This document shows positions 20,127 through 37,307 of a stretch of DNA of 64,000 nt, piece after piece. How positions within the stretch are numbered: the stretch's first letter is position 1; every line of letters starts with the position of its first letter. Source of the DNA: Oscillospiraceae bacterium (lineage in GTDB: Bacteria; Bacillota; Clostridia; Oscillospirales; Acutalibacteraceae); NCBI GenBank assembly GCA_015065425.1, contig SVQH01000010.1, positions 17,920 to 81,919 on the forward strand, read 5' to 3'. The notes below the pieces were generated by a model. The model was not told the origin of the DNA and did not search any database. It was given only the letters and a program-made list of their open reading frames with translations. The position numbers were made by a program, and so were the translations under genes.

Positions 20127-20132
20127 GTGAAT

Positions 20133-23100: not shown

Positions 23101-24608
23101 TTTGTAAATCCGTTGGCTGTCAAATTCTTCGCAACATCGTAGGTCATTGACATAGAAGCTGTTGAACCGCTTGTGCTACCGTTTCCGTCAAACTTAATAG
23201 TGTAAGTGTTTGGAGTCCACTGTGCATAGAGAGTTCTCGTACAATCTCCGGTCTTGATACTTGAATTCAAGTCTGTTGGCTTAACTGTTGCATCATTTTG
23301 GTCAAACAATGTTCCGCCTGTTGTACTTGTTCCCCATTTCGTAAATCTGTAACCTGTTTTATACAGTCCAAAGGTTGAAGCATTAACAAGGCCGTCAGCC
23401 TTTGTGGAGTTATAAGTCCAAGCCTGATAATACCTTGTACTGTCAGATTCCTTATACACATTCTTTGAAGAAAGGTAATACTTTGTGGAATCAATAGAAC
23501 CACCGTTAGCATTGTAATAAACCTTTAAGTCATAAGGGTCCCACTGTGCATAGAGATTAACCGTTGCACCCTGAGTTGAAGTAAGGTTTTTAACCGACTG
23601 CTTATTAGTGTAGCTTGTACCCGAACCGTTGGCTTTTGTGTTCCACTTAACAAATGAATTACCTGTCTTTGTAAAGCCGTTTGCAGTAAGGTTTTTAGCA
23701 ACGCCGTAGGTCATTGTCATAGATGCAGTTGAACCGCCCGTATTCCCGTTACCATTAAACTTAATGGTGTAGGTCTTATTTGTGGTTTCGTTATATGCAA
23801 TACCCGCACCGTAACCCTTTGAAATAATGTTATCAAAGGATGCCTTTGATGAACTGCCGATTGCACTTGCTGCAGTCCATAGACCCTGACCGTCGGGTGT
23901 ATAAAGTTTATTGGGCCAAATGCGGTTTGTGTAGTTAGAAATAAATCCCCAAGTTTTGGAAGTACCGTTACTTGTACCGCCTGTACTTGAACCGCCCAAT
24001 ACACTTCGTCCGCAATAAGCTATTTCTGATACTGTCAATGCCTGATATTCACCTGCAAGACAAACATCAAACAGAGGTTCAATAATAACCTTGTCTCCGT
24101 AGTTCATATTGTTTACACTACCGACACCGAGTTTTGAAAGCACTTTGTTGATATTAGCTTCATAGCTCTGCCAAGTTTCTACGCCACTTGGATTAGGAAG
24201 TGTAGTTGTAAAACCCATATCCTTTTCCTTATAACAATTTGTTTGGTTATAAGTTGTAGTTAATTTTGCATTTTTGTTTGCTATAACCTGTTTCTTGTTG
24301 TACTTTGTAGAAAATTTTGCGGAAGTAGAATAGGCATTATCACCGTTTGATGTGTTTCTGTAAACATCAATAACTTTAGTGACTTTCATACCGCCCGATG
24401 AATTAACCGCAGAGAAACGATAACCGACAACACAAGCCGAATCACTTGTGGAACGAATAACATAACCCGTTGAGCTGCCGTTTACCGCATTTGTACTACC
24501 GCCTGCAGAGTCACCGTCCCAAGAGAGGGCAAATGCAGAATACGGTATTGCCGACAGTAAAGTACAAAGAACAAGAAGAATTGAAATTATCTTTTTAATA
24601 ACAATCAT
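20133..24608 (-). CDS. Large secreted InlB-repeat protein, 1491 aa
   Basis: A secreted surface-type protein. The N-terminus is a clear signal peptide (IKKIISILLVLCTLLSA, cut near SAFA). Residues about 280-790 hold five close copies of an InlB-type B repeat of about 70 residues. Each starts YTIKFNGNG, passes through ASMTMTYDVAKNLTANGF and WNTKA-GSGT and ends LYAQW or LYAKW. One divergent, longer copy sits second. The C-terminal 700 residues look like repeated beta-sandwich domains (for example VRYTYKNNTDVKVYVEG). No LPXTG motif or membrane anchor ends it. InlB repeats occur in adhesins, so host or mate adhesion is a fair guess. It has its own terminators on both sides and follows the pilus genes. 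Confidence 0.85.
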   Translation of the reverse strand: MIVIKKIISILLVLCTLLSAIPYSAFALSWDGDSAGGSTNAVNGSSTGYVIRSTSDSACVVGYRFSAVNSSGGMKVTKVIDVYRNTSNGDNAYSTSAKFSTKYNKKQVIANKNAKLTTTYNQTNCYKEKDMGFTTTLPNPSGVETWQSYEANINKVLSKLGVGSVNNMNYGDKVIIEPLFDVCLAGEYQALTVSEIAYCGRSVLGGSSTGGTSNGTSKTWGFISNYTNRIWPNKLYTPDGQGLWTAASAIGSSSKASFDNIISKGYGAGIAYNETTNKTYTIKFNGNGNTGGSTASMTMTYGVAKNLTANGFTKTGNSFVKWNTKANGSGTSYTNKQSVKNLTSTQGATVNLYAQWDPYDLKVYYNANGGSIDSTKYYLSSKNVYKESDSTRYYQAWTYNSTKADGLVNASTFGLYKTGYRFTKWGTSTTGGTLFDQNDATVKPTDLNSSIKTGDCTRTLYAQWTPNTYTIKFDGNGSTSGSTASMSMTYDVAKNLTANGFTKSGYHFSGWNTKADGSGTSYYNKQSVKNLTATHGATITLYAQWDTNSYTIAFDGNGNTGGTTSSMTMKFDVAKNLNKNGYTRTGYTFSKWNTKANGSGTNYTNQQSVKNLTTVNGGTFYLYAQWTPNTYTIKFNGNGATSGSTASMSMTYDVAKNLTANGFKKTGYIFDGWNSNSSGTGTNYTDKQSVKNLTSTNGGTVTLYAKWKPITYTIKFDGNGATGGSTASMSMTYDVAKNLTANGFTRTSYKFIGWNTKADGTGTNYTNKQSVKNLTTTNGATITLYAKWEYDPVLAVNECDIYSGAKSNKTTLFGITTGNVFDDYVYKTDYPTIGDTVWYNIYFPAEKESFKARQYVRYKGGSWTTRDVTLSSSSSSSQWFPVQFTGNYKTITAGQQYFEIEAKTDWIDASGNVKKSGTVKTFYIPIKPVVYRTQVTATGYEGTTVAYNGSAGSSGKLYSGQHIKIAYKYTADNTWSAIEYLRGSMYHYNGSKWATVYTSNDGYDAAKNKVGISKSLPVTLNSSIGTYTVPVTSQNKLRFNLETWWSSDKTHTFEETWYDLPVVKSDVALTKITLVDSSTKATLDSNNLKAGQSVLVRYTYKNNTDVKVYVEGFKNDKTQISGVYAIPANSSITVDGYSFIVPNKRNINIWGGVYLEGMGIYNTDYESNGSNNALTLACKVKHPLTLEPITPNADYRENTEVITSYWLKNSYSDDYTPAEDVSIKFCVYKGSNLIYSYTKTKAIVPGNDINHIYFKWKVPIGFNNADVKITAEIIDDGASYNKVTKYYSTIPYKIVQTPDTQFEKKGPSGFSIPADTSTRGTACEWWEYVYENGKFVQKQYYTGLTSYSIKIEPKNTQTATKSGSTWYMNSGYAITMSLNNGTTASKSGFSTAPADSYTLPQYGVAIFPEYSYSKDSGKITTLVLSGGKWIFSATGSYGNVHFTPLWYPDGNYIVRAELSDMWTPSGMMKKEYKSNTIKIKDSAYDDWYVGR
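22240..23775 (-). repeat. DNA repeats encoding the InlB-type modules
   Basis: Five copies of about 210 bases recur inside the large secreted-protein gene, sharing long near-identical stretches such as the codons for KQSVKNLT and MSMTYDVAKNLTANGF. They are interrupted by one divergent, longer unit at about 23,220-23,530. Near-identity at the DNA level suggests recent duplication or gene conversion and would allow copy number to change by recombination. Confidence 0.75.
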
Positions 24609-24620
24609 CTTCCTTTCGTA

Positions 24621-24652
24621 AAAAATAAAAGCTCGACTTTTACGCCGAGCTT
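24621..24652 (-). terminator. Rho-independent terminator after the Cys-rich gene
   Basis: AAGCTCG (24646-24652 on the minus strand) pairs with CGAGCTT (24629-24635) and is followed by TTATTTTTT. It separates the Cys-rich membrane-protein gene, at the end of the pilus operon, from the InlB-repeat gene. Confidence 0.75.
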
Positions 24653-24667
24653 AGTCCGATTTATATT

Positions 24668-25414
24668 TTAATGTGAGTGGCAGGTCTTACCTTTAACTGA
24701 TTTACCGCATTCAGGACACTTTGTATCAACTGTAAATCTTACACAAGTATCGCCGGAGCCTGTACCGACTTTCTTGCCACATTCCTGACAGTATTCACAA
24801 GGGTCACTCTTTGCATTGTAGCTTTCACACTTTGTAGGGTCATAACAAGCATTTCCCCATTCGTCATAAGTGTAGAAACTCTTACAAGAGTGTGAACCGC
24901 AGTGGGGACAGCCTTTGTTTTCAAGACTTACAATAAAGTCATGTGTTTCTTTACTGTCACAATGATGTCCCTTTTTACCGCAACTGTACTCATTTACACT
25001 ATCGTTACCGTTATCAATTACCTCATATCTGTTGCCCTGTGATACTCCTGCAGGATTACCCTCAGTTACAGGTTCAGCAGGTTTAACAGTAGAGGTCTGC
25101 TGTGTAGGCTTCTGAGTAGTGGTTACTTTTTCAACTGTTGGTTCTTCAAGTTTAATAACTGTCTCGTTTTTTTCGGTAGTGCTCTCTGCATTGTCATTTT
25201 CTTCTGTGATGTCATCATCAATGACAATATCGCCAACCGTTTCTGCCTGTTCGGTTGTAATATCGGTTGTAGGTTCTTCTGTGTCCTTGCCGACAAAGTT
25301 ACCAATCATTACTGCAATAAAGATTGATACTGCAATAATGCCGACTATGAGAGCAGCGATTATTTTGTTGTTTTTGTTTCCCTTTTTGTTTGGGTTACTT
25401 GTAAGAATCATCAT
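24668..25414 (-). CDS. Membrane-anchored Cys/His-rich extracellular protein, 248 aa
   Basis: The protein starts with a basic cytosolic stretch and one membrane helix (IIAALIVGIIAVSIFIAVMIG, residues about 18-40). A 90-residue Thr/Glu/Pro-rich linker leads to a C-terminal domain (residues about 145-248) with many Cys and His in ribbon-like pairs (CPHCGSHSC, CEYCQECGKK, CPECGK). The N-in topology would place the Cys domain outside the cell. It ends the pilus gene row, before a terminator. I do not recognise a family; an extracellular zinc-ribbon or disulfide-linked domain tied to the pilus base is a reasonable guess. Confidence 0.75.
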   Translation of the reverse strand: MMILTSNPNKKGNKNNKIIAALIVGIIAVSIFIAVMIGNFVGKDTEEPTTDITTEQAETVGDIVIDDDITEENDNAESTTEKNETVIKLEEPTVEKVTTTQKPTQQTSTVKPAEPVTEGNPAGVSQGNRYEVIDNGNDSVNEYSCGKKGHHCDSKETHDFIVSLENKGCPHCGSHSCKSFYTYDEWGNACYDPTKCESYNAKSDPCEYCQECGKKVGTGSGDTCVRFTVDTKCPECGKSVKGKTCHSH

Positions 25415-25432
25415 TTTTGTTTCCTCCTGTGA

Positions 25433-25912
25433 TTAAAATTTTTCGGTTAATATTGATGTTACCTCTATGGGTATATTCGCAGATGGGAACCGATGACCTG
25501 CAAACCATAACGGAATTGAAATCGTATAATTTACTACAAGTTCAAGTTCGTTTGCTTCTCGGAAGCTGAGTACGGGTTCTGTTATGTGATACAGTTCTTT
25601 TCCGTCTGCATCATAACTATATAACATTCCGTCCTCTATTTCCAATGTGCAAAATGATATGAGAGATGTGCGAAATTCTTCAGTATCAATCGCTTCAGTA
25701 TAGTCATTACCTTGCTTGATACTGTTATATATTTCGGTTGAGTTTTGAGTAAGAAAACTGTCAAGCACAACCTTCGTGTTTTCTCTCATAAGGTTTACCT
25801 TTGATATGGATGCAGAGTAAGTGAATATCATTGCGAATATCATCGCAAATATAAGAATAAAGACACAAGGGACAATATATCCCTCTGCTTTATTTGATTT
25901 TAACAGCTTCAT
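25433..25912 (-). CDS. TadE/TadF-like minor pilin, 159 aa
   Basis: A short basic leader ending KSNKAEGYIV is followed by a 20-residue hydrophobic helix (PCVFILIFAMIFAMIFTY) and a polar extracellular domain. This is the layout of TadE/F pseudopilins, which sit in or at the base of Tad pili. The AEGY motif before the helix resembles the probable processing region of the other pilins here. It lies directly after the DUF4320-like gene in the Tad row. Confidence 0.75.
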   Translation of the reverse strand: MKLLKSNKAEGYIVPCVFILIFAMIFAMIFTYSASISKVNLMRENTKVVLDSFLTQNSTEIYNSIKQGNDYTEAIDTEEFRTSLISFCTLEIEDGMLYSYDADGKELYHITEPVLSFREANELELVVNYTISIPLWFAGHRFPSANIPIEVTSILTEKF

Positions 25913-25921
25913 TTGTTACAC

Positions 25922-26332
25922 CTACTTCCAATACTTTTCCGATATACCTGACCTGTGGCTTGTAACTGTTACGGGTATTCTGAACATACCAAGACCTTGC
26001 ACATAGGTCTGCACCGAAACAAAAACATCCATTTGGTCTCCGAGCTGAACACGCTCATAGGTTGCATTGAAATAGCTTTCTGCATCAGTATCAACCTCAA
26101 ATTCAAAGAACTGATTTTGAAGGTTCTCAACTCTTTCATCAAACTCGCTGTCAAAACAGCCGTTAAATGTTGCAGTTTCAATAAGCTGACCGCTTATCTC
26201 ATCAAGATCCTGTTTCAGAGTCATAAACTGAAAGATGTTAAGAACAACAACGAGAACCATCATCATAGCAAATATACCGATTACAACATCAATATATCCT
26301 TCGCCCTTTTTAGATTTAATAAATTTCTTCAT
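25922..26332 (-). CDS. DUF4320-type minor pilin, 136 aa
   Basis: The protein begins MKKFIKSKKGEGYID, then a hydrophobic helix (VVIGIFAMMMVLVVVLNIF) and an extracellular domain of about 100 residues. This matches DUF4320 proteins of Clostridia Tad loci, which are TadE-like minor pilins. I chose the ATG at 26332, preceded by GGAGG; the longer upstream extension lies inside tadC. KGEGY is a likely prepilin peptidase recognition site. It is the first of two minor pilin genes after tadC. Confidence 0.8.
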   Translation of the reverse strand: MKKFIKSKKGEGYIDVVIGIFAMMMVLVVVLNIFQFMTLKQDLDEISGQLIETATFNGCFDSEFDERVENLQNQFFEFEVDTDAESYFNATYERVQLGDQMDVFVSVQTYVQGLGMFRIPVTVTSHRSGISEKYWK

Positions 26333-26345
26333 ATATACACCTCCG

Positions 26346-27218
26346 TTAACCGAACAGAACGCCCATAGAAGAAACAATCTGAGCGAGAATAACTACGATA
26401 TATATGAGCATAAAGCAGAAAAGCAGACACATTGAAAGTTTCTTTACCTTTCTCGGTATCTTTTCAGCTTCAAGCCTTAACTGCTGTCTTTGAATATCAG
26501 CAAACTTCATAGAGAGGGATTTCCAATACACCGTATTGACATCACCTCGGTCAACAGATATAAGTCCTCGGCAAACGTCACTCATAAGAGGTGAACCTAC
26601 TCGTGCTTCAAGTCTTGTGATAGCAACTTCCGTATTACCGGAATGAATATCTGCAGCAGTAATGTCAAGTTCGTGCTTTATTTCAGGTCCCGCATTTTTC
26701 GCAAAGGACTCAATCATTTCAAGTACGTCCTTACTGTGCATCAAGGACTTTTCAATCTTGAAAACAAATCTCGGAAGTTCATATTCAATCTTTGCTCTTT
26801 TTGCCCTTATTCGGTTTGAGATGCCCTTCATATTCATTCGGTAAAGAATGAAAGCAAGGAATATGATTATCGGACAAAGTATGGGGAAGATAAAGAGAAC
26901 GGGAATAGCAAATACACCGACAATGAGAGATTTAACAATGGCATTTGCCATAAACATTTCGGGAGTAATATCCATTTGAGCCGTTCTTAAATCTGATTCC
27001 AACTGAGCCTTCTTAAACTCATTCAAACGAATTTTACGGGCAATAAAAGAAGCAACAGATGAAAGCCAAACATCAATACTGCTTGTTTTCTCTTTCTGTT
27101 GCTTTGCAAGGTTATTAACCGCCTTTGATGTTCTCATATACGGAATACGGAAGTGGTCTGCAAGTATCATAAATAAGCCGATTCCGCAAAGAACACCGAT
27201 ACAAATTTTTATTATCAT
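26346..27218 (-). CDS. TadC-like pilus platform protein
   Basis: A 290-residue polytopic membrane protein of the type II secretion F/TadC family, forming half of the inner-membrane platform on which TadA acts. It has an N-terminal helix (residues 1-20), a basic cytosolic stretch, a helix pair around IVGVFAIPVLFIFPILCPIIIFLAFIL, a cytosolic helical domain, and a final helix (LLFCFMLIYIVVILAQIV). It follows tadB by 12 bases with an AGGAGG ribosome binding site. Confidence 0.88.
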   Translation of the reverse strand: MIIKICIGVLCGIGLFMILADHFRIPYMRTSKAVNNLAKQQKEKTSSIDVWLSSVASFIARKIRLNEFKKAQLESDLRTAQMDITPEMFMANAIVKSLIVGVFAIPVLFIFPILCPIIIFLAFILYRMNMKGISNRIRAKRAKIEYELPRFVFKIEKSLMHSKDVLEMIESFAKNAGPEIKHELDITAADIHSGNTEVAITRLEARVGSPLMSDVCRGLISVDRGDVNTVYWKSLSMKFADIQRQQLRLEAEKIPRKVKKLSMCLLFCFMLIYIVVILAQIVSSMGVLFG

Positions 27219-27230
27219 CAGACCGCCTCC

Positions 27231-28154
27231 TTATCTTTTGTATTCTACAGGTTTTGTGAACTTTATCATAAAGAAGTATGTTACTACTATCACAATACCG
27301 CATACACCGAGCACGATTTTACCCGGTGTTTCAAATATGAGTGTATGAAACCAATCTTTATTGAGAACATAAAGCAAAGGTATATTACCAACTACAAGAC
27401 CGACCATTGTGTAGTATTCCGTTCTTACGGCTGACATCATAGTGTTAAGCTCACTGTTTACGATACGAACATCAGTAAGCTTTGAAACAATAGGCTGTAA
27501 GGTATCTTTCATTTCCTGATTGTCCTGGCACTGTATAAGGGTATCAACCCATTCACGGAAGATTTCATCATCAACCTTCTTTTTAAGGTTATATAGTGCC
27601 TGTTTAACACTTGAAGATACCGCCATAGCATCACCAATAAAAGCCGTAAAACATTCTTTAAGTGGTGGCTTGATATGAGGTAAGTTTTCCTGTACTGCCA
27701 TAATGATATTACCATCTCTTGAATATGAGGTAGTAATGATAGAGAGTGCAGTTTCAAGTTCTTCCTTTGTCTGCTTTTCATAGATGTTTATGATGTTACG
27801 AACATAAATAAAGGGTATCATTGCAAATGCTACCGATAAAGCAGGGATAAGGAATACATTATTAATTAAAACAGCAACAACAGCACCTACGGCAAACAAG
27901 ACTAATGCTGCTGAACAAACAAAAGCAAACATTCCTTCTTTGCCACAAGCCTTTAATGCCGATTGCAGATATTCAAGTTTTGCACCCAAGCCTTTTTTCT
28001 TTTTTCCTGCTCTGAGTGCTCTCGCTCTGTCACGAATATTAGGTTTCTTTGATACAACAGAACTTAAATCCTGTGTTATCTGTTGCGGGGTTAAATTAAG
28101 AAAACATACGATTGCTATAATAAGAAATATAGACGCAATCATTGGGAGTATCAT
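27231..28154 (-). CDS. TadB-like pilus platform protein
   Basis: A 307-residue membrane protein of the type II secretion F family, partner of TadC. Helices lie at residues 1-20, about 78-125 and at the C-terminus (about 255-300), with the cytosolic helical domain between. It starts inside the 3' end of tadA (ATGA overlap), so the ATPase and platform are translationally coupled, as usual for Tad loci. Confidence 0.88.
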   Translation of the reverse strand: MILPMIASIFLIIAIVCFLNLTPQQITQDLSSVVSKKPNIRDRARALRAGKKKKGLGAKLEYLQSALKACGKEGMFAFVCSAALVLFAVGAVVAVLINNVFLIPALSVAFAMIPFIYVRNIINIYEKQTKEELETALSIITTSYSRDGNIIMAVQENLPHIKPPLKECFTAFIGDAMAVSSSVKQALYNLKKKVDDEIFREWVDTLIQCQDNQEMKDTLQPIVSKLTDVRIVNSELNTMMSAVRTEYYTMVGLVVGNIPLLYVLNKDWFHTLIFETPGKIVLGVCGIVIVVTYFFMIKFTKPVEYKR

Positions 28155-29464
28155 TCGTAATCAGCTCCCTTCTTTAAGAATTTGTTTAATTCCTCCTGTG
28201 GTACACCGAACTGCAGGAGTTTTCTTTTGAGATTGTCTGACATAATTTCAGGCTGTTCAAAATAGCCTTCGGTAACATATTTACCGTTTACGATTTCGTT
28301 TTTAGTGATATTGAATCTGAAAAGTGTGTGATAAACTCTATCACCGTTGGGAAGTATCTCACACTCGGAAATATCCATAATCTTTCTTTCGTTGTTCTCT
28401 AACTTATGAGAGTAAACAACAATAGGGAAAGCCTGACCTGCCTGCATAAGAGAAGTTTTGAAGTCGATGGGGAAACGCTTCTGACAAAGAAGAGCAATTC
28501 GCATATGTGCTGAATCAGCAGCAAATGCGTGAACTGTTGATACAACGGTATGACCTGTAAGACTTGCTTCAACTGCTGAATAACATTCAACATCTCGCAT
28601 CTCACCGACACATACAATATCGGGATTGAAACGAAGTGAAGCTACAACAAGGTCTTCCTGAGTTATATCAAATGCAGGGTTATCGGAAGGACGGGAAAGA
28701 GTATGGACTACATTGTTTACTACCTTGCCTTTCTTTTTTCGGACAAGTGAAAGTTCTCTTGAACCTGTTTCAATGGTGAACACTCGCTTACCATCGGGAA
28801 TTGTAGTGAGTAGTGCATTAAGAAGTGTTGTTTTACCTGAACTTGTTGCACCCGCAACAACCATAGAAACACCGTATCGCATACACATACAAAGGAAATC
28901 AATCATCTTTTCAGTTGCATTACCGGAAGAAATAATCTGCTTTCTGTTAATTCTTGACGGATGCAAAAGACGGATAGAAACACTGACACCCACTTCATCG
29001 TCAACAAGAGGTTCTTTGAGTGCCGTAATACGGGTATTATTAGGCAAATGACCTTGCGACATGGGAGTGGAGTTATCAATAATCATACCTGAATGATGAA
29101 GCAAACGCTTAACAATATCGACAGCGTGTGAAGGAGAATAAAAATGCTCCTTTGCTTTTATTGTTCTACCCGAAGTATAGGTAATAGCAATATCATTCCA
29201 AGCATTGATGTTGATTTCTTCAATGTTATCTCTGCCGAGATATTTGGTAAGAATGGAGTATTCAGCCATTTCAGAATAAAGTTTATTGCTCAGTTCGGTT
29301 TGTGTAAGTCCTTCAACTACATAACCGGTGTCAAGAAGATATTTGTCTATATATGACCTGAGCTGTGGCAATTTACTTGAATCAGAAAGTGCCGCCGCAT
29401 AACGAGAGGAGATATGCTCCTGAATCATCGATAACAGCGGCACAAAATCAATGATTTTCTGCAT
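28151..29464 (-). CDS. TadA/CpaF-family pilus assembly ATPase
   Basis: A 437-residue secretion ATPase that powers Flp pilus assembly. It has Walker A GATSSGKTT (about residue 207), the aspartate-box/Walker B region PDIVCVGEMRD (about 282) and the His box GHTVVSTVHA (about 302), in the order seen in CpaF. The N-terminal all-alpha/beta domain contains INAWNDIAITY. It lies between the IPQTG protein gene and tadB and is slightly longer than many Gram-positive relatives, with no missing motif. Confidence 0.93.
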   Translation of the reverse strand: MQKIIDFVPLLSMIQEHISSRYAAALSDSSKLPQLRSYIDKYLLDTGYVVEGLTQTELSNKLYSEMAEYSILTKYLGRDNIEEININAWNDIAITYTSGRTIKAKEHFYSPSHAVDIVKRLLHHSGMIIDNSTPMSQGHLPNNTRITALKEPLVDDEVGVSVSIRLLHPSRINRKQIISSGNATEKMIDFLCMCMRYGVSMVVAGATSSGKTTLLNALLTTIPDGKRVFTIETGSRELSLVRKKKGKVVNNVVHTLSRPSDNPAFDITQEDLVVASLRFNPDIVCVGEMRDVECYSAVEASLTGHTVVSTVHAFAADSAHMRIALLCQKRFPIDFKTSLMQAGQAFPIVVYSHKLENNERKIMDISECEILPNGDRVYHTLFRFNITKNEIVNGKYVTEGYFEQPEIMSDNLKRKLLQFGVPQEELNKFLKKGADYE

Positions 29465-29478
29465 TACTTAATCTCCGT

Positions 29479-29973
29479 TCACTTTGATTTTGTTTTCTTA
29501 ATCTTTTTACCCTTTACAACGCAATATGCAAGAGCAATAGCGGACACGATGAAAGTAGCAACAGCAGGGAAAATCTTTCTTTTTTCTCCTGTCTGCGGAA
29601 TTTCAGGGACTTCATCATTTACCGCTTCACTATCATCTTCCACGGTTTCGCCGTCCTCAAGAACTTCAAAAGTAGCACTTTCAACTTCCTCATTGCTTTC
29701 GCTATCTGTATTGTCGGAACCTTCAGCTCCTTCGGAAGATTCAGGCATTGTTGTTTCATCTGCTTCGGTAGATGTTTCCACATCAGTAGTTGCAGTATCG
29801 GCATTATTACTCACTTCCTCGGCTGTTGTTTCTTCGGGGATTGTTGTATCTTTTTCGGTTGTTCCTGTTTCGGGAATATTGGGAGTTTCTTCGTTATTTG
29901 CAGCAGAAGCTACAACAGAAGATGCAGTTGCAATAACTGCCATAGCAATAAGGACACCTATAATCTTTTTCAT
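29479..29973 (-). CDS. IPQTG cell-wall-anchored acidic protein
   Basis: A 164-residue exported protein. It has a signal peptide (KKIIGVLIAMAVIATASSVVASA), about 100 residues of Glu/Thr/Ser-rich low-complexity spacer, then IPQTGE, a hydrophobic helix (FPAVATFIVSAIALAYCVV) and a KGKKIKKTK tail. That is a complete sortase signal with Ile in place of Leu. It is embedded between cpaE- and tadA-like genes, so the wall-linked protein may help the pilus cross the thick wall. No sortase gene is in the window. Confidence 0.82.
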   Translation of the reverse strand: MKKIIGVLIAMAVIATASSVVASAANNEETPNIPETGTTEKDTTIPEETTAEEVSNNADTATTDVETSTEADETTMPESSEGAEGSDNTDSESNEEVESATFEVLEDGETVEDDSEAVNDEVPEIPQTGEKRKIFPAVATFIVSAIALAYCVVKGKKIKKTKSK

Positions 29974-29992
29974 TCTGAATTCTTCCTTTCTC

Positions 29993-30718
29993 TTACATAA
30001 TCTTGTTTATAATCTTTGAAAGCTCTGTTCGGTACTTTTTATCCTTTGCTCTTTCGTAAAGCAGACCGTCAAGGTGCTGACCTCTTATCTGTTTACTGTA
30101 AGGCAAAATATATGAAATGTTCTTCACATTGGTTCTTACATCATCAACAGGTGAATAAAGCTCATTTTCGTTCACATTGAGAATTCTCATTGCTCTTTCA
30201 GCATTGTTTCCGAAAAGCTCCTCGTTTGATGCAAGATATACCATACTTTTAAGGTCAGGTGAAAGCACCATAATTACCTCGTGTGCATTTCTCAATGCTA
30301 TCTGTGAGATAAGATCATTTTCCTCGTCTGTGCAATCGACAAAGACATATCCTGCCATTTTGTGAAGCACCTCAAAAAGTGCATTTACCTTATCTTCCGT
30401 AAGCGTTGCAAAATCGTATTTGTTTTCTCCCGCCTTGTAACCAAGACAACCGAAGTTGTTCATAGCCTTAACAGTAACAAGGTGGTTCAGAATATCCTCC
30501 TCATAAATATCTGTCTTATCGAACATCGTACCGAGAGAGAAGATACTGTCAGGCGTGTAATTCGGGAATAAAACACCTAATGCAGGGACTTTCAAAGAAG
30601 GTGAAAGATAAATTACTGCTCCGCTTGTAGTGGCGCAGTAAAGCTCCTGTGCCAATTTCAGAGTAACGGTTGTTTTACCGCTACCGGGTGAACCGATTAC
30701 AGCAATAATCTTAGCCAT
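29993..30718 (-). CDS. CpaE/TadZ-like P-loop ATPase
   Basis: A 241-residue MinD/ParA-superfamily protein with an N-terminal P-loop (IAVIGSPGSGKTT), an acidic strand VFVDCTDEEND (about residue 132) and the helical pattern of CpaE/TadZ. Such proteins localise Tad machinery. The P-loop is of the GxxGxGKTT type rather than the deviant KGGxGKT, as in several Gram-positive Tad loci. I chose the ATG at 30718 (MAKIIAV), which overlaps the cpaB-like gene by 8 bases. Confidence 0.82.
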   Translation of the reverse strand: MAKIIAVIGSPGSGKTTVTLKLAQELYCATTSGAVIYLSPSLKVPALGVLFPNYTPDSIFSLGTMFDKTDIYEEDILNHLVTVKAMNNFGCLGYKAGENKYDFATLTEDKVNALFEVLHKMAGYVFVDCTDEENDLISQIALRNAHEVIMVLSPDLKSMVYLASNEELFGNNAERAMRILNVNENELYSPVDDVRTNVKNISYILPYSKQIRGQHLDGLLYERAKDKKYRTELSKIINKIM

Positions 30719-31445
30719 TCTTATCAGCCTCACTTACATTCTTTTTTGTGAAATAATCGTCCTGTGCTTTAAGAAACTTATCTGCAGTAGCATCGTCACC
30801 TCGGTAAACGAGAGCAACGTGCATTACTGCACTTTCCTCGTAGTTTGCAAGGATTTTTGCCTGTTCAACAGACACAAGAACCGTAATTGTTGTAGGAAGC
30901 TCAAAGCTGCCGTCCTCATTTTCAACAACATCGTTTTCATCAATACCGCCTGATGTGGTTGTTGTGATTACTTTGACATATTTAAGAGATGCCGGGACTT
31001 CTGTGTGGTTATCTTTATCGGTAACATAAATGCTTACAATATCACCGTTTTCGAGCTTACCTGAAAGACCACCCGCAAATGAGTTTATTGTGATACTCAT
31101 TGCAACCTTATCACCTTTTAGTGAAGCCATAACATCATTAGCTGTGTTTGCATTATCAGTTACCTTACTTTCGGTTGCAAAGTCGCCTTTGAATATATCT
31201 GCTGTTGCAAATTTACCGACAACTGATTTCTTGTCCTTAATTACCTTTTCGGGGAGTGCAGAATTTGAGATTTTCACAATCTCAACATCTGTGTCTTTAA
31301 TCTCTGTTCCGTGAGATACATCAGCAACAAAGCGGACTACCTCCGTTTTCTTATCAGAGATGTTGTTTACAAGGGGTGACACAACAAAGGTTACTGCCAC
31401 CGCAAGAATAATACAGACGATACCTATCGCTGTTCTGTTTTTCAT
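30711..31445 (-). CDS. CpaB/RcpC-like pilus protein with SAF domain
   Basis: A 244-residue protein with an N-terminal membrane helix (IGIVCIILAVAVTFVVSPLV) and a SAF-type domain (residues about 40-105, GTEIKDTDVEIVKI…VVGKFATADIFKGD). A C-terminal CpaB-like region follows (SITINSFAGGLSGKLENGDIVSIYV). CpaB proteins are outer or periplasmic Tad assembly factors; in Gram-positives they are thought to span the wall zone. It overlaps the 63-aa gene upstream by 4 bases. Confidence 0.85.
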   Translation of the reverse strand: MKNRTAIGIVCIILAVAVTFVVSPLVNNISDKKTEVVRFVADVSHGTEIKDTDVEIVKISNSALPEKVIKDKKSVVGKFATADIFKGDFATESKVTDNANTANDVMASLKGDKVAMSITINSFAGGLSGKLENGDIVSIYVTDKDNHTEVPASLKYVKVITTTTSGGIDENDVVENEDGSFELPTTITVLVSVEQAKILANYEESAVMHVALVYRGDDATADKFLKAQDDYFTKKNVSEADKNG

Positions 31446-31633
31446 TTCTGTTCAACTCCTTTATTACAAAAATCTCGTTCTATTACTTCGGGAGGTGAAG
31501 TAACAAAAGTTATAAATGTTCTGTCAAAATCTTTCTTTGACACCGTAAGTTCTTTACCGTTTGAGTAAATGAGCCTTACTTTGTTTTCATCGATTATTTT
31601 CCAATCGGTGAGAAAATCAGGTTCCTTCTTCAT
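31442..31633 (-). CDS. Small hypothetical protein in the Tad operon, 63 aa
   Basis: A soluble 63-residue protein (starts MKKEPDFLTDWKIIDENKVRL) with a good AAAGGAGG ribosome binding site. It lies between the prepilin peptidase and cpaB-like genes and overlaps the latter by 4 bases. No family was recognised. Its placement argues for a pilus-related helper, but nothing in the sequence shows what it does. Confidence 0.65.
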   Translation of the reverse strand: MKKEPDFLTDWKIIDENKVRLIYSNGKELTVSKKDFDRTFITFVTSPPEVIERDFCNKGVEQK

Positions 31634-31646
31634 TGCTATACCTCCT

Positions 31647-32318
31647 TTAGCAGAAATACATCAGCATAAAGCCAATGCTTAAATACGGAACGAGTGGAAA
31701 AGGTTGGTTTTTCAATTTTTTCTGTTTCTGAATGATTAGATTTACTATCACCGAAACAAACAGACCGATAACAAGACCTGCTATGCTCTTTGATAAACCA
31801 AGCAAGAAAGCACAGGCAGCAGAGAGTTTTACATCTGCTCCGCCAAGTCTGTTTCCGCTTACCATAGCACAGATTAACAACACTCCGCCGATAGCCAAGC
31901 CACTGAAAAGCATCATCGGAATATCGGAAAGTGTTACACCTATGAAGCCTGTAATGAATATCAAAACTGAAACGAAATCTTTAACCTCGTGTGTCTGAAT
32001 ATCTGATACCGAAGCATAGAGTAATATTTGCAAAAGAATAATGCCTTTGAGTAGTTCTATTGACCAACCGAAGGCAATTAGCAGACTTGACACAAGAATA
32101 ATACTGATGCAATGATATATTGGGATTTTTTTGCTTTCTTTGTTGTAACCGGGTGTTTTACTGATTACAACTTTTGAAATCTTGTGAACTGCCAAGTAGA
32201 AAAGAAAAATACAAGCGAGCTTCACAATGGTGGTTATAACTTCTTCGGGATTTAGTTCCATTAACCTTTCAGGTGAAATCGGTCTTATCGGTCCTATTGG
32301 TTGTATAAATTTAGTCAT
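31647..32318 (-). CDS. A24-family prepilin peptidase (TadV/CpaA-like)
   Basis: A 223-residue polytopic membrane aspartyl protease that should cleave the pilin leaders. The two catalytic aspartates are in YASVSDIQTHEV (about residue 105) and SGNRLGGADVKLSA (about 160), the latter matching the family's GxGD motif in GGAD form. At least six hydrophobic segments are visible. It follows the three pilin genes after a hairpin and precedes the 63-aa gene. Confidence 0.88.
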   Translation of the reverse strand: MTKFIQPIGPIRPISPERLMELNPEEVITTIVKLACIFLFYLAVHKISKVVISKTPGYNKESKKIPIYHCISIILVSSLLIAFGWSIELLKGIILLQILLYASVSDIQTHEVKDFVSVLIFITGFIGVTLSDIPMMLFSGLAIGGVLLICAMVSGNRLGGADVKLSAACAFLLGLSKSIAGLVIGLFVSVIVNLIIQKQKKLKNQPFPLVPYLSIGFMLMYFC

Positions 32319-32340
32319 AGTTATCAGTCCTCACAAATAT

Positions 32341-32368
32341 GGGCGAAGCAGTTTTTCTGCTCCGCCCG
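32341..32368 (-). terminator. Hairpin between pilin genes and prepilin peptidase
   Basis: GGGCGGAGCAG and CTGCTTCGCCC on the minus strand pair (one G-T) around AAAAA just after the third pilin stop. It lacks a strong T run, so it more likely slows transcription or protects the abundant pilin mRNA from 3' decay than ends it. Confidence 0.55.
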
Positions 32369-32378
32369 TTTGAATTAT

Positions 32379-32645
32379 TTAGCCTGCGTAGTTAAAAAGA
32401 CCTTCGACCTTTTCGGTTACGGTAGGCATAATTGTGTCGTTGAAGAGTGCATAGAGAAGTGTGAGAAGAAGAGCACCGATTACAACGGCGATGAGAATCT
32501 TGACGCCTGTGTCAACATAGGCTTCAGCAACAGTACCGTCAAGAACTGCGTGAGCCTTTGCTGCCATTGCTGTTTCCTTTGCTGAAACAAAACCCTTTAC
32601 CTTGTTTGCTACACCTGTAGCCATTGACTTGATTTTCTTAAACAT
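32379..32645 (-). CDS. Flp-type major pilin paralog 3 (DUF6133-like)
   Basis: An 88-residue prepilin. A basic, amphipathic leader of about 42 residues ends in LDGTVAEAYVDTGVK, followed by a hydrophobic helix (ILIAVVIGALLLTLLYALF) and a short C-terminus ending LFNYAG. It resembles small Clostridia pilins often labelled DUF6133. The GTVAEAY stretch is close to the Flp cleavage motif (G, then E and Y within six residues). It is nearly identical to the adjacent paralog, with TLLYALFND where the other has GGLYALFNT. Confidence 0.82.
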   Translation of the reverse strand: MFKKIKSMATGVANKVKGFVSAKETAMAAKAHAVLDGTVAEAYVDTGVKILIAVVIGALLLTLLYALFNDTIMPTVTEKVEGLFNYAG

Positions 32646-32683
32646 AATTTTTTACCTCGTTCTTTCTTAATTTTTGTTTTCGC

Positions 32684-32950
32684 TTAACCTGCGTAGTTGA
32701 AAAGTCCCTGAATCTTGCTTGTGACTGTGGGCATAATAGTTGTGTTGAAGAGAGCGTAAAGACCGCCGAGAAGAAGAGCACCGATTACAACGGCGATGAG
32801 AATCTTAACGCCTGTGTCAACATAGGCTTCAGCAACTGTACCGTCAAGAACTGCATGAGCCTTTGCTGCCATTTCTGTTTCCTTTGCTGAAACGAAACCC
32901 TTTACCTTGTTTGCAACACCTGTTGCGATTGACTTAATCTTGTTAAACAT
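32684..32950 (-). CDS. Flp-type major pilin paralog 2 (DUF6133-like)
   Basis: An 88-residue prepilin with the same layout as its neighbours: basic leader MFNKIKSIATGVANKVKGF, AEAYVDTGVK, hydrophobic helix, NYAG end. It is close to identical to paralog 3 at both protein and DNA level, so this pair is a recent tandem duplication. It lies between a hairpin terminator and paralog 3, which starts 38 bases further on. It may be a structural subunit or an alternative version of it. Confidence 0.82.
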   Translation of the reverse strand: MFNKIKSIATGVANKVKGFVSAKETEMAAKAHAVLDGTVAEAYVDTGVKILIAVVIGALLLGGLYALFNTTIMPTVTSKIQGLFNYAG

Positions 32951-32970
32951 AATTTTTTACCTCTTTCTTA

Positions 32971-32996
32971 AAAATTTAGAGCACCCGTTTTGTTAC
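32971..32996 (-). terminator. Hairpin between pilin paralogs 1 and 2
   Basis: GAGCATCCGT and ACGGGTGCTC pair on the minus strand (one G-T), followed by TAAATTTTT. It would make the first pilin the most abundant message by partial termination. Confidence 0.6.
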
Positions 32997-33035
32997 GGAT
33001 GCTCTTTTGTGATAGATTGTTTGATTTGTTGAGCT

Positions 33036-33293
33036 TTAACCTGCGTAGTTGAAAAGCTCTGTGATTTTCTGTGTGACAGTGGGCATAATGGTTGAATTGA
33101 AGAGAGCGTAAAGACCGCCGAGAAGAAGAGCACCGATAACTACGGCGATGAGAATCTTAACACCGGTATCTACATACGCTTCTGCGATTGTTCCATTGAG
33201 GACTTCGTGTGCCTTCTGAGAAACCTTTTCTGCACAGAAGTCCTTTACTGCCTGAACCTTTGTCTGAATGAATGACTTTGCTTTGTTAAACAT
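33036..33293 (-). CDS. Flp-type major pilin paralog 1 (DUF6133-like)
   Basis: An 85-residue prepilin, first of the three in transcription order. Its leader differs from the others (MFNKAKSFIQTKVQAVKDFCAEKVSQKAHEVL), but from GTIAEAYVDTGVKILIAVVIG onward it matches them. It is followed directly by a hairpin with a T-rich tail, as expected for a highly expressed subunit. Its divergent leader and place at the front make it the best guess for the main pilus subunit. Confidence 0.83.
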   Translation of the reverse strand: MFNKAKSFIQTKVQAVKDFCAEKVSQKAHEVLNGTIAEAYVDTGVKILIAVVIGALLLGGLYALFNSTIMPTVTQKITELFNYAG

Positions 33294-33320
33294 AATTTTT
33301 ACCTCGTTCTTTCTTAAAAT

Positions 33321-33599
33321 TTAGTTGTTTTTGTTGATTTCCTGCTCATAAGCAGCGAAAAGTGCTTCTTCAAGTTCTTTACGAGCCGAAGAAGAAATTG
33401 GATGGCATACGGGTCTTGTAACTTCTTCACCCTTTGCTGTCTTCCAACTTGTCATAGGCATAGACATATATCTGCCTTTTTCGTTTTCGACAACTCCAAC
33501 GCCGTGAATTACGACTGCATCATCGATAACAATGTTTGCATAAGCTTTTGTAGGCTTATCACCTTTGAGGATTTTCTTGATTTCTACTTTGATATTCAT
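33321..33599 (-). CDS. SpoVG-family protein
   Basis: A 92-residue protein matching SpoVG: KVEIKKILKGDKPTKAYANIVIDDAVVIHGVGVVE, then GRYMSMPMTSWKTAKGEEV and PVCHPISSSARKELEEAL. SpoVG proteins are small DNA/RNA-binding regulators. Copies in mobile elements are common. Here it sits between parB and the pilin genes, preceded by three TACTAAC-type heptamers, so it may regulate the pilus operon. Confidence 0.85.
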   Translation of the reverse strand: MNIKVEIKKILKGDKPTKAYANIVIDDAVVIHGVGVVENEKGRYMSMPMTSWKTAKGEEVTRPVCHPISSSARKELEEALFAAYEQEINKNN

Positions 33600-33622
33600 T
33601 TTGCATTTTCCTTTCTTGTTCT

Positions 33623-33668
33623 TACTAACAGAGTTAATATTTCTTATTCTCGGTTAGTACAGTTAGTA
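33623..33668. promoter_or_regulatory. Triple heptamer upstream of the spoVG-pilin genes
   Basis: GTTAGTA occurs at 33653-33659 and 33662-33668 (9 bases apart) and its reverse complement TACTAAC at 33623-33629. The stretch lies between the parB stop and the SpoVG start and could be an operator for the SpoVG-pilus transcript. Confidence 0.45.
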
Positions 33669-33709
33669 TTTAATAAAGGGGAGAGTGTGAGAGGGGAAAA
33701 AGAAAAAAG

Positions 33710-34663
33710 CTATCGAGCTTCTCTTTCCCTGCGTCTCTGTTGGACACGGTTATAGTAGTCGATAGCTTTTAATACATATTCGCACTGTTTTTCTTTTGGA
33801 ACAGATGCAGGAATTGCTTTTGATATGCGATTATCTCTGAACGGAGATTTTTCCTTTTGATTTGGTTTCTCCTCATCCATAATCGTATCAATAACATCCT
33901 TTGACAATCTGCCTTGTTCTGCGAATTTTCTCATTCGCAAAGTCTGTGCATGTGAAGGGGTTGCATCTGCAAATTCAATAGCTTCAAAAAGCCACATTTG
34001 TGCTTCAGGAGTGAAATATGAGATTTCAACTGCAGGTCGCATTGCGATTTGCTTTTCATCCACAAGGTCAAGAAGTTCGGGAATAAGGTTAGTAAGACGA
34101 ATATATCTGCGGATTTGCTCACGGCTTTCACCGACTTCTTCTGCCAAAATCTCATTTGTCCTGAGTTTTGAAGAATTTGACTCCACCGGTGTCAGATTTT
34201 CTTTTTTCGGTCTGCCTGCTTGTCTGTTCATTGCTTCCAGACGCATTTTGAAAGCAAACGCCTTCTCTGAGGGTAGAATTTCATCTCGTTGCAGATTACT
34301 GTCCACCATTGAAAGTATAGCTTCATCCATTGTAAGTTCCTGAACTCTTGCAGGTATCTTTTCAATATTTGCAAGTTCAAATGCTCTTTTCCTTCGGTGT
34401 CCGGACACCATTTCGTATGTCCCGTCATCAAGTGGTCTTACAAGTACGGGTTGAATTAGTCCTCTTGTTTTTATACTTTCAACAAGTTCAAACATATTTT
34501 CATCGTCTTTAACCTTGTACGGATGGTCAGGGAAATCGTGAATTAAAGAAATGGGGATTTCCATAAGCCTTTCTCTCTTTAAGTCTTCACGACTTTCGTC
34601 CGTTTCAAATAAATCATCGAACGAGTTCAGATGAACTTTTGACACGCTGTCTTGTTTTGCCAT
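33710..34663 (-). CDS. parB: ParB-family partition protein
   Basis: A 317-residue ParB/Spo0J-like protein. The N-terminal CTPase/ParB domain has PISLIHDFPDHPYKVKDD, ESIKTRGLIQPVLVRP and MVSGHRRKRAFELA (residues about 36-100). A helix-turn-helix follows near TNEILAEEVGESREQIRRYIRL. Paired with ParA it should stabilise the excised, replicating form of the element, or regulate transfer genes. It overlaps the parA 3' end by 50 bases. Confidence 0.92.
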   Translation of the reverse strand: MAKQDSVSKVHLNSFDDLFETDESREDLKRERLMEIPISLIHDFPDHPYKVKDDENMFELVESIKTRGLIQPVLVRPLDDGTYEMVSGHRRKRAFELANIEKIPARVQELTMDEAILSMVDSNLQRDEILPSEKAFAFKMRLEAMNRQAGRPKKENLTPVESNSSKLRTNEILAEEVGESREQIRRYIRLTNLIPELLDLVDEKQIAMRPAVEISYFTPEAQMWLFEAIEFADATPSHAQTLRMRKFAEQGRLSKDVIDTIMDEEKPNQKEKSPFRDNRISKAIPASVPKEKQCEYVLKAIDYYNRVQQRRREREAR

Positions 34664-35450
34664 CTCCCATTACCTCCTTCGTAAAATTCGCATAGGCTTC
34701 AGCCACCTTACCGTTTTTATCGTGAAGATAAATGCTTTTGCCTTCTGCCGTTGTTTCAACTGCTCTTATTGAACGGGGAATAACAGTGTTAAAAACAGTC
34801 GGATATTTACCATACTGTTGTCTTATAAGGCTTTCTAAACCTCTGCCAAACCTTGTGCGATAATCGACCATTGTTATAAGGATGCCGTCGATTTTAAGGT
34901 CAGGGTTTATTCTCCTTTTTACTCTGTTAATTGTTCCGAGAAGCTGTTCAAGTCCTTTTGCTGATAAAAACTCCGGCGTTGTAGGTATAATTACACTGTC
35001 TGCCGAACATAGAGCATTGAATGTCATCATACCAAGTGAGGGCATACAATCTATAAGGATATAGTCGTATTTGTCCCTTACTGTATCAACATAAGTTTTT
35101 AACACTCTTTCTCGGCTCATTTCATTTACTAATCGAACTTCAATTCCTGAAAGTTCAATGTTTGAAGGCATAAGGTCAATGCCTTCGTCTGTTCTTAAAA
35201 CAGCAAACCCCGATTCAAACTCTTTATCCTCAACAATTCTTTCCATAACATTTGCGAGTGTTGAGTCGAGTTCATCGGGATTTTTAACACCTAATGAGAG
35301 CGTAAGACTTCCTTGCGGGTCTGCATCAATTATCATTACTTTTTTACCCTGTCGGACAAGTCCTGCTCCCAAATTTGCTGCTGTTGTAGTTTTTCCTACA
35401 CCGCCTTTTTGATTTGCGATTGCAATTACTTTGCAATTATTCAAGTGCAT
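34614..35450 (-). CDS. parA: ParA-family partition ATPase
   Basis: A 278-residue ParA ATPase with the deviant Walker A KGGVGKTTTAANLG (about residue 15), Walker A' DADPQGSLT and Walker B YDYILIDCMPSLG. It binds DNA non-specifically and moves or positions ParB-bound DNA. It overlaps parB, and an inverted repeat (35473-35490) sits right in front of its ribosome binding site, suggesting autoregulation. Confidence 0.95.
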   Translation of the reverse strand: MHLNNCKVIAIANQKGGVGKTTTAANLGAGLVRQGKKVMIIDADPQGSLTLSLGVKNPDELDSTLANVMERIVEDKEFESGFAVLRTDEGIDLMPSNIELSGIEVRLVNEMSRERVLKTYVDTVRDKYDYILIDCMPSLGMMTFNALCSADSVIIPTTPEFLSAKGLEQLLGTINRVKRRINPDLKIDGILITMVDYRTRFGRGLESLIRQQYGKYPTVFNTVIPRSIRAVETTAEGKSIYLHDKNGKVAEAYANFTKEVMGDGKTRQRVKSSSELVR

Positions 35451-35472
35451 TCCTCCTAATAGTTAATTGCTA

Positions 35473-35490
35473 ATATTCGTGTGCGAATAT
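35473..35490. promoter_or_regulatory. Candidate ParA/ParB operator or parS
   Basis: ATATTCG-TGTG-CGAATAT is a perfect inverted repeat with 7-base arms, 22 bases ahead of the parA start. Partition operons are commonly controlled through such sites. It does not match the chromosomal parS consensus. Confidence 0.5.
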
Positions 35491-35540
35491 ATACGACATT
35501 ACATTCCTCCTCTACAAAGAAATGTTTTTTCTCAATCAAA

Positions 35541-35639
35541 CTAAATGCCGATAATCTGATTGAACACATACCAAAGCGGAAGCACAACATTAAACGCTAA
35601 GCCTCTGCCGATGTTGTAAATGATTGCAGTAGTAATCAT
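35541..35639 (-). CDS. 32-aa hydrophobic micropeptide upstream of parA
   Basis: A short ORF (MITTAIIYNIGRGLAFNVVL and 12 more residues) with an excellent AAGGAGGAG ribosome binding site. Most of it is hydrophobic, so it may insert in the membrane. It lies between the 79-aa gene and parA. No family was recognised. The ribosome binding site is the main reason for calling it. Confidence 0.5.
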   Translation of the reverse strand: MITTAIIYNIGRGLAFNVVLPLWYVFNQIIGI

Positions 35640-35688
35640 AAAACTCCTCCTTTACTATAAAAATGTGGTTGAAGAAACCTTAATCGTG

Positions 35689-35928
35689 TTAAGTACACCA
35701 CGCATAAAACAACTCATCAAGGTCATCAATAATAAATAAATCGCTTCGCCACTGACCGGGCCAAACAGCAACAATTTTACTTTTACCTGACTTTGCATTC
35801 GATAAAGCATCTCGACGGCTGTTACGGTCAGTTGGTATTTGAGTTATTGTTCCATCAGGAAAAACTTCCATAAAACATACAAGCTTACTCTTGTATGGAA
35901 AACATCCTGATTCTCTTGCACTTCTCAT
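35689..35928 (-). CDS. Small ICE hypothetical protein, 79 aa
   Basis: A 79-residue soluble protein starting MRSARESGCFPYKSKLVCFM and ending DLFIIDDLDELFYAWCT. I chose the ATG at 35928, 7 bases after AAAGGAG; the longer in-frame extension has no ribosome binding site. It is the outermost clear gene of the element on this side. No function was recognised. Confidence 0.65.
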   Translation of the reverse strand: MRSARESGCFPYKSKLVCFMEVFPDGTITQIPTDRNSRRDALSNAKSGKSKIVAVWPGQWRSDLFIIDDLDELFYAWCT

Positions 35929-36040
35929 AAAGTAACTCCTTTCCACAAATATTAGTGCCGATTTTTCGGCATGTAAAATTTTGATAAGTACATATAATAA
36001 GGTTTTATGAGTTAAGAATCTTTGCAAGAGATTAAGAGTA

Positions 36041-36269
36041 AACAGAAGCGTGCTTATCCGTGCTTTAATTCTCGGTAAAAGGTTGGTTGAGGCTCCGCCT
36101 GTTGATTACAAACAGTTTATTATTGAGCTTCGCAGAGTCGGTACTAACCTTAATCAGCTTACTGCTAAAGCAAATGCAATCGGTTTCATTGACCGTTCCG
36201 AATGATGTCAGAACTCTTGAAGCAAACATCTCGAAATATTTCAAACCGGGCAAAGTAGGACTTGAATAA
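36041..36269 (+). pseudogene. Frameshifted mobC remnant
   Basis: Plus-strand translation gives SVLIRALILGKRLVEAPPVDYK, then ELRRVGTNLNQLTAKANAIGF, a clear MobC signature (compare VEAPAIDYRKW and IGNNINQV in the intact gene at 4596-4937). The frame then breaks near 36,190 and resumes one frame over as VPNDVRTLEANISKYFKPGK before the stop at 36269. No start codon with a ribosome binding site was found. This is a dead copy from a different element, in the opposite orientation to the ICE. Confidence 0.8.
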
Positions 36270-36388: not shown

Positions 36389-36459
36389 TATGACTCCGAG
36401 ATAGAAATCTTTAATATAAATATCTCAACATCATAAAACCTTATGTATAAGCAGTATTT

Positions 36460-37235: not shown

Positions 37236-37261
37236 TACTTTTTAAAATATATCAAAAAACA

Positions 37262-37305: not shown

Positions 37306-37307
37306 TT

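Follow-up and report, generated by a model that had tools for sequence, protein, structure and literature searches.

Background

How Gram-positive donor cells catch their recipients is poorly known, and Gram-positive mating is thought to depend on adhesins. A 64,000-nucleotide stretch of an Oscillospiraceae bacterium genome (contig SVQH01000010.1, here C52:17920-81919, within a 2.79-Mb assembly of 59 contigs that is 95% complete) raises the question of what a complete Tad (type IVc) pilus gene set is doing within an integrative and conjugative element (ICE). This whole stretch of DNA, for which the nearest named relatives are Clostridia metagenome-assembled genomes, is referred to below as the window. 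The answer that we favor, at a probability of roughly 0.65, is that the tad genes occupy an exchangeable mating-adhesion slot, in which a Tad pilus and a partner protein with a conserved WTPxGM motif would stand in place of a wall-anchored adhesin.

A complete Tad gene set on one strand

Positions 24668-33599 hold a complete Tad pilus gene set, consisting of open genes on the minus strand with short gaps. The initial annotation, made from the sequence alone, had listed three pilins, an A24 peptidase, CpaB, a TadZ-like protein, TadA, TadB, TadC and two minor pilins, and all of them are present in the region given. The outline of the region changed at both ends: the gene at 33321-33599 encodes a SpoVG-like protein, and the module reaches to 20133, taking in the WTPxGM protein that had been overlooked. 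The features of the module are as follows.

33321-33599, minus: SpoVG-like protein, first gene of the module and not a tad gene (PF04026, E 6e-20)
33036-33293, minus: major pilin 1, DUF6133 (Pfam), Flp-like, site A↓EAYVD
32978-33005, minus: 11-bp stem-loop 3' of pilin 1, possible attenuator
32684-32950, minus: major pilin 2, DUF6133 (Pfam)
32379-32645, minus: major pilin 3, DUF6133 (Pfam)
32341-32367, minus: 11-bp stem-loop 3' of pilin 3
31647-32318, minus: A24 prepilin peptidase (Peptidase_A24, E 5e-10)
31442-31633, minus: 63-aa small protein (no Pfam family; 97% identical in related genome G028)
30711-31445, minus: CpaB/RcpC (Pfam RcpC/CpaB, E 1e-10)
29993-30733, minus: TadZ/CpaE-like P-loop ATPase (weak ParA/BcsQ-type matches, and position)
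29479-29973, minus: small LPXTG-like wall protein, lineage-specific insertion
28151-29464, minus: TadA/CpaF motor ATPase (T2SSE, PF00437, E 1e-30)
27231-28154, minus: TadB platform protein (profile-profile comparison)
26346-27218, minus: TadC platform protein (profile-profile comparison)
25922-26377, minus: minor pilin, DUF4320 (Pfam, E 1e-25), site KKG↓EGYID
25433-25912, minus: minor pilin, TadE-like, site KA↓EGYIV (sequence and position)
24668-25414, minus: Cys-rich membrane-anchored protein (no Pfam family; conserved among window-type elements)
20133-24608, minus: WTPxGM protein, proposed pilus-linked adhesin (signal peptide by eye, Flg_new repeats, conserved unanchored C-terminal end)

A TadA/CpaF motor, separate TadB and TadC proteins, and an A24 peptidase with CpaB/RcpC and TadZ are thereby united in one locus. 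Among solved structures, the TadA family profile retrieved CpaF at the top (8rkd and 8rjf, E 1e-43). CpaB matched its NCBIfam model at E 2e-19, yet its score of 69.7 bits lies under the cut-off of 71. TadB and TadC, for which the Pfam and NCBIfam scans gave no family, were compared as profiles with their counterparts in nine tad loci of another TadA type, taken as the first two open reading frames (ORFs) of 200-420 aa after TadA; E-values were 6e-14 for TadB and 3e-10 for TadC, and cross-pairs were far weaker (1e-4 and 3e-3). The solved-structure search with the TadB, TadC and pilin profiles returned nothing useful, and prion rows obtained with the pilin profile (E >=0.08) were taken as chance. 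Terminator-like sites are abundant in 19500-37600, with 26 against 11.9 (standard deviation 3.4) in shuffled sequence.

The same gene set recurs widely. A scan of GTDB species genomes gave at least 572 stretches encoding TadA relatives, of which the best 80 (45-100% identical over the best segment) were used; relatives beyond these may include the other TadA type. Among these 80, all 31 loci of at least 20 kb contain CpaB, TadZ, TadB, TadC, DUF4320 and a pilin, accompanied by TadE (30), the WTPxGM/Flg_new protein (30), the A24 peptidase (29), SpoVG (22) and ParB (7). The ratio of nonsynonymous to synonymous substitution rates (dN/dS) is 0 to 0.33 for tad genes with unsaturated dS and 0.03 and 0.11 for VirB4; the tad genes are under purifying selection. 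The wall-anchored protein of the initial annotation is present as a gene, although its Gram_pos_anchor match (E 0.005) is below the cut-off; it has no match in G028 or in locus L079, and its dN/dS is ~0.7 from few differences.

The pilins are Flp-like rather than canonical Flp pilins as characterized in an earlier survey (PMC3244431). All 28 rows of the pilin alignment match [GA]↓[ED]-x-[YF]-[VI]-[DG], giving the E/D at +5 that marks small Tad pilins, with G at +5 in the L103 and L104 pilins. The canonical Flp Tyr at +6 is replaced by T, S or E. The minor pilin DUF4320 has a similar cleavage site, linking the two families to the A24 peptidase.

Within the host assembly, TadA is the sole PF00437 match over the family cut-off and the A24 peptidase the sole PF01478 match. 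Judged from this 95%-complete assembly, the host lacks any further type IV filament.

Linkage to conjugation genes

The tad module lies among genes of the ICE, those within the window being as follows.

1-1531 (C52:17603-19450), minus: VirD4 coupling protein, cut by the window edge (T4SS-DNA_transf, E 1e-63)
3220-4937, minus: MobA relaxase and MobC/NikA-like accessory protein (Relaxase, E 5e-40)
8615-17788, minus: 3057-aa protein of the ICE backbone (Pfam: MutS_I, methylase and SNF2 helicase parts)
17778-20076, minus: p114, p202, p317 and p121, conserved genes that flank the slot on its other side (comparison of related elements)
33710-34663, minus: ParB, slot flank (ParB_N, E 2e-20)
34614-35450, minus: ParA, slot flank (Pfam AAA_31, E 2e-60)

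The rest of VirD4 and the genes for a VirB2-like pilin, TrbL, PrgI, VirB4 and an M23 enzyme lie on the same contig, left of the window, such that the relaxase, VirD4, VirB4 and the membrane genes of a type IV secretion system (T4SS) are all on one element. The idea that the Tad machine replaces the T4SS was rejected, since a full T4SS is present. The 3057-aa protein fuses MutS domain I, a methylase and SNF2/ResIII helicase parts and is conserved across most of the ICE family.

Among 147 related genomes, TadA was found at E 1e-20 or better in 25, of which 15 encode the element type (32-100% identical) and 10 only another type that is just 28-30% identical to the window TadA. Nine of these ten (G086 was left out) gave no match to the window conjugation and backbone proteins except for ParA-like genes. 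In the 25 genomes, VirD4 lies within 45 kb of 23 of the 43 element-type TadA rows vs 0 of the 15 other rows (Fisher p 1e-4, with rows treated as independent although they are not), or 0/13 once the unclear fragments G159:C90 and G163:C84 are set aside. Weaker TadA rows (G163:C254, G156:C37, G160:C17, G158:C34 and G158:C9) were left out. VirD4 is 11-41 kb downstream on the same strand in 22 of the 23 linked rows, and five long window-type relatives (G107, G148, G150 and G153 twice) carry tad together with the relaxase, VirD4 and VirB4. The prediction that tad belongs to the conjugative element is supported, and a chance neighborhood or a chromosomal tad locus beside an ICE was rejected on the grounds of linkage, synteny and the split of TadA identities. 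Pilin profile matches occur in 13 of the 147 genomes, of which 11 have element-type TadA; G022 and G080 have no TadA match. One contig, G153:C6 (L177-L182), has two distinct elements of this family, both with tad, which face opposite ways ~84 kb apart.

The module also travels with differing conjugation machineries: the window type has a MobA relaxase, a Muricomes type has a MobP3-like relaxase and a VirB4 that is 28% identical, and plasmids pTPHSE1, pCd5_2 and pESS10701c have a pLS20-like T4SS with MobP2. Carriers of the module include the culturable commensals Muricomes intestini DSM 29489 (L124) and Terrisporobacter petrolearius, the latter on pTPHSE1 (L073). Element-type TadA is encoded on 6 of 72,556 PLSDB plasmids. 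In the annotation of five of the six, VirD4 and a relaxase are given for pTPHSE1, pCd5_2, pESS10701c and the MB08-C2-2 plasmid, while pESS17301a has PrgI and an ATP-binding protein beside tad in the 45 of 136 kb covered. PLSDB types all six as non-mobilizable, contrary to these annotated transfer genes. Highly similar copies in other species-level metagenome-assembled genomes (L077, 94.9% over 7.9 kb; L101, 96.9% over 2.8 kb) suggest recent transfer, subject to the usual reservations about binning. Locus L090, on a contig labelled Alphaproteobacteria (SZUA-601), has the same module with a 75% identical TadA and is perhaps a binning error.

An exchangeable slot

The initial annotation had suggested that tad forms part of the ICE backbone. 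This was rejected, as the same backbone is found without tad, which makes the module an exchangeable cassette. Five sister elements (G043, G136, G057, G046 and G055) keep the order ParA-ParB-slot-...-Toprim-relaxase-VirD4-VirB2-TrbL-PrgI-VirB4, and four of them (not G055) keep the giant helicase. No tad was seen in the stretches read, and their genomes contain no TadA match. Occupying their slot is a protein of 1332-1431 aa that ends in a sortase-type xPxT[GS] motif (an LPXTG-type SpaA adhesin), in which Pfam finds 8-10 SpaA stretches in 5/5 and a thioester domain (TED) in 4/5. A small lipoprotein-like gene shares the slot in four; G057 has a gene pair resembling an insertion sequence there instead.

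A census of 50 ParB-anchored rows found in this slot tad, a TED/SpaA adhesin, a very long SpaA protein, an S-layer homology (SLH) protein or nothing. The labels assigned were adhesin (26), tad (8), SLH (3) and nothing (3), based on tblastn and ORF ends, with Pfam applied to five of the TED/SpaA rows, three of the SLH rows and a single long one. Rows L220, L224, L225, L229, L230 and L234 are unlabelled, L203 has a weak adhesin match, and the backbone around L232 and L236 is a different one. On the ParB tree of 46 rows, which left out G153b (located at the L213 site), L208 (on a short contig, with ParB and a TadA of 33% identity), L222 and L201, the Tad label requires 5 changes, all forced by starred branches. 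On the p317 tree of 26 rows it requires 2, of which starred branches force 1. Both trees are quick searches with Shimodaira-Hasegawa-like approximate likelihood ratio test (SH-aLRT) support only, and G000 and L227 are long-branched in the ParB tree. Slot exchange has occurred, only once or twice for certain. The slot proteins of L206 and L228 are ~2200-2700 aa long, with both ORFs ending right at LPRTGY; by Pfam, that of L206 has 23 SpaA stretches and a thioester domain.

Because the slot is common to TED adhesins, the inferred role of the pilus in mating is better founded than before. The most plausible reading is that the Tad pilus and its unanchored partner, standing where the sisters have a TED adhesin, solve the same task in a different way. 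In an unlikely alternative, the pilus is cargo that aids adhesion of the host to the gut wall, feed particles or biofilm, and conjugation just spreads its genes. One would then not expect it to occupy the slot of an adhesin class with a known part in mating, or to turn up beside three or more different conjugation machineries. Cargo retained after transfer would also show purifying selection, and a role in colonization was proposed for the plasmid-borne tad genes of Cutibacterium acnes by authors citing Tad pili needed for colonization elsewhere (PMC5696575).

Participation of the pilus in DNA passage, as a chimeric T4SS and type IV pilus like that of PAPI-1, has the PAPI-1 and IncI precedents (PMC12857230) and the shared orientation of tad and VirD4 in its favor. 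It is nevertheless very improbable here, given that the element already has the VirB2-like protein, PrgI, VirB4, TrbL, VirD4 and the M23 cell-wall enzyme, and that sister elements with the same T4SS have no tad.

A partner protein that tracks the pilus

The WTPxGM motif lies ~30 residues before the C-terminus of its protein, for which a complete ORF is present in 48 of the 80 loci. A short form has ~565 aa, and the window form carries inserted Flg_new repeats, which are perhaps its stalk. Pfam at E 0.01 found three families among 30 aligned members, each in a single member. Neither an anchor motif (xPxT[GSA]) nor a C-terminal membrane segment occurs in any of the 48 complete proteins, whereas the motif is present in 24 of 26 slot adhesins; those without it are L197 and L211, the latter cut by a contig end, and that of L212 lies in an ORF that is likewise cut.

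The association with the pilus is tight. Across the 72,556 PLSDB plasmids, those with the WTPxGM protein are exactly the six with element-type TadA, and in the 147 genomes it occurs at E <1e-50 in 12 of the 15 with element-type TadA vs 0 of the 132 others; a weak 58-residue match in G043 (E 8e-10) was not counted as strong. Co-occurrence with TadA in both plasmids and genomes indicates that the protein tracks the pilus and not the backbone. On pTPHSE1 and the MB08-C2-2 plasmid, its gene is upstream of tad. MT838517.1 and four further faecal records labelled 'Bacteriophage sp.' carry the protein or part of it and are possibly mislabelled conjugative elements.

Instead of an adhesin, an unanchored protein of this kind could be a substrate for secretion, and Tad machines have been co-opted for uptake, as in Micrococcus luteus, where tad serves transformation (cited in PMC5696575). 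A DNA-uptake or protein-secretion device unrelated to mating is nonetheless the least probable of the alternatives considered, by a little. The element ORFs scanned with Pfam include no competence family, and such a device leaves unexplained why the slot is shared with wall-anchored adhesins.

Element borders and neighboring sequences

37308-37382, minus: tRNA-Arg(CCT), 3' end facing the element, candidate border only

This gene on the ParA side is the only tRNA gene in the window and lies outside both the tad and the ICE genes, giving no sign of the attachment (att) site between the two groups that the initial annotation had named as contrary evidence. Toward the distal side the contig runs out; integrases are present at the corresponding end in G150, G156 and G165. 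A second border marked by a repeat of the tRNA gene was sought and rejected, as only 13- and 14-base contig matches were found, which were taken as chance, and the tested 26-mer is single in the genome (<=3 mismatches). L101 and G148 also have tRNA genes on the Par side, and an att core was established in none.

Beside the intact gene, 37465-37510 contains by eye a fragment resembling the 5' half of tRNA-Arg, a possible att remnant. Between ParA and tRNA-Arg, a pemK RNA motif (RF02913) at 36519-36618 scores over its gathering threshold, and 36020-36430 contains by eye broken remnants resembling MobC and the N-terminal part of a further relaxase, which suggest that an older mobile element adjoins the ICE. 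At the left end of the contig (L004:6-2734), an N6_N4_Mtase DNA methylase and a ResIII helicase perhaps form a type III restriction system.

Discussion

We propose that the slot between parAB and the replication/helicase genes encodes a donor surface structure that would hold the recipient. In many such elements that structure would be the SpaA adhesin, a long wall-anchored protein that frequently includes a thioester domain. In the window element, the A24 peptidase would cleave the DUF6133 pilins, and TadA, TadB and TadC would polymerize them and perhaps also retract them. The WTPxGM protein, having no wall anchor of its own, would be displayed by or through the pilus and bind the recipient, after which the T4SS of the element would transfer DNA.

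Several observations weigh against this proposal. We found no experiment that deals with transfer or pili of these elements, and an adhesin slot could equally serve host colonization. The slot is empty in the ParB-linked L210, L219 and L233, so a surface module is not indispensable, and the disagreement between the ParB and p317 trees makes the number of exchanges uncertain. Pilin-like ORFs of the Clostridioides plasmids pCd5_2, pESS10701c and pESS17301a do not have the DUF6133 site. A conjugation marker was present within the 10-kb flanks of just 5 of the 80 loci, and whole genomes were searched for that reason; there, VirD4 is absent within 45 kb of TadA in 20 of the 43 element-type rows. 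Thirteen of these 20 have <21.3 kb of contig downstream, G161:C18 and G156:C29 have VirB4 downstream, and in G147 the backbone is on another contig, probably as part of the same element split in assembly. The expectation that tad would not be met in relatives apart from conjugation genes held for the five long relatives and did not hold in two places. No VirD4 lies on the G158:C23 contig, despite 73 kb downstream of tad, nor did the stretches read show any further conjugation marker. In the G169 genome, tadA is broken and VirD4 has no match.

The wider proposition is that Gram-positive conjugation uses pili, in that the mating organ of a whole group of clostridial ICEs and plasmids is a Tad pilus equipped with its own WTPxGM adhesin and encoded in a swappable slot that elsewhere holds a covalent thioester adhesin or an S-layer protein; on present evidence we consider it evenly balanced. 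If it is true, Gram-positive bacteria may after all hold mating partners with pili, and gain of the element, the sole source of a type IV filament in the 95%-complete assembly, would turn a non-piliated host cell into a piliated one. With these elements the question can be tested directly in gut commensals, and the differing slot contents (pilus, thioester adhesin, SLH protein or nothing) form a natural experiment on recipient range and on adhesion during mating. The analysis also supplies likely pilins (DUF6133 and DUF4320) and a partner family without its own Pfam model for numerous tad loci.

Comparison with known systems

Tad systems were the most often transferred and most often plasmid-borne of the type IV filaments compared in one survey (PMC6668835). 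The literature within our coverage, which leaves out most subscription journals, yielded no description of this Tad family and no mention of DUF6133 or DUF4320. The window locus is like Gram-positive Tad/Flp loci, including the Clostridia 'no Flp_2' loci without a recognizable pilin, such as those of Clostridium kluyveri and C. bolteae (PMC3244431), in having TadA/B/C, TadZ, CpaB/RcpC, an A24 peptidase and small pilins with no secretin recognized. It is unlike those loci, as far as they are described there, in its DUF6133 pilins, where +5 is Asp and +6 is not Tyr, its WTPxGM partner and its carriage on a conjugative element.

A linear plasmid of C. acnes likewise combines tad and transfer genes in a Gram-positive host (PMC5696575). 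Its putative pilin and appendages were detected, and the authors left open a link between pilus and conjugation. The accessible text describes neither a slot exchange nor a WTPxGM partner for it, and no Cutibacterium record is among the six PLSDB plasmids with element-type TadA.

In Gram-negative conjugation, the IncI R64/TP114 thin pilus, which is of type IV and distinct from the T4SS, bears an adhesin, PilV, and stabilizes TP114 mating pairs (PMC9045228). It differs in its Gram-negative host, pilus class and PilV shufflon, and the window system is not a member of it by sequence. For PAPI-1, a type IV pilus was required under all mating conditions (PMC12857230).

In Clostridium sordellii, the authors of the pCS1 study suggest that wall-anchored proteins, including a CnaB protein upstream of the transfer locus, may be a conjugation adhesion factor, and the accessible part of that paper does not mention pilus, pilin, CpaF or TadA (PMC5770547). 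The thioester (TIE/TED) adhesin of pLS20 is needed for efficient conjugation, above all in liquid (PMC8092201). With its TED and Cna-type stalk, it is like the alternative proteins of the slot, and it differs from the pilus in being a single surface protein and from the slot proteins, which have sortase-type ends, in not being sortase-linked according to that study.

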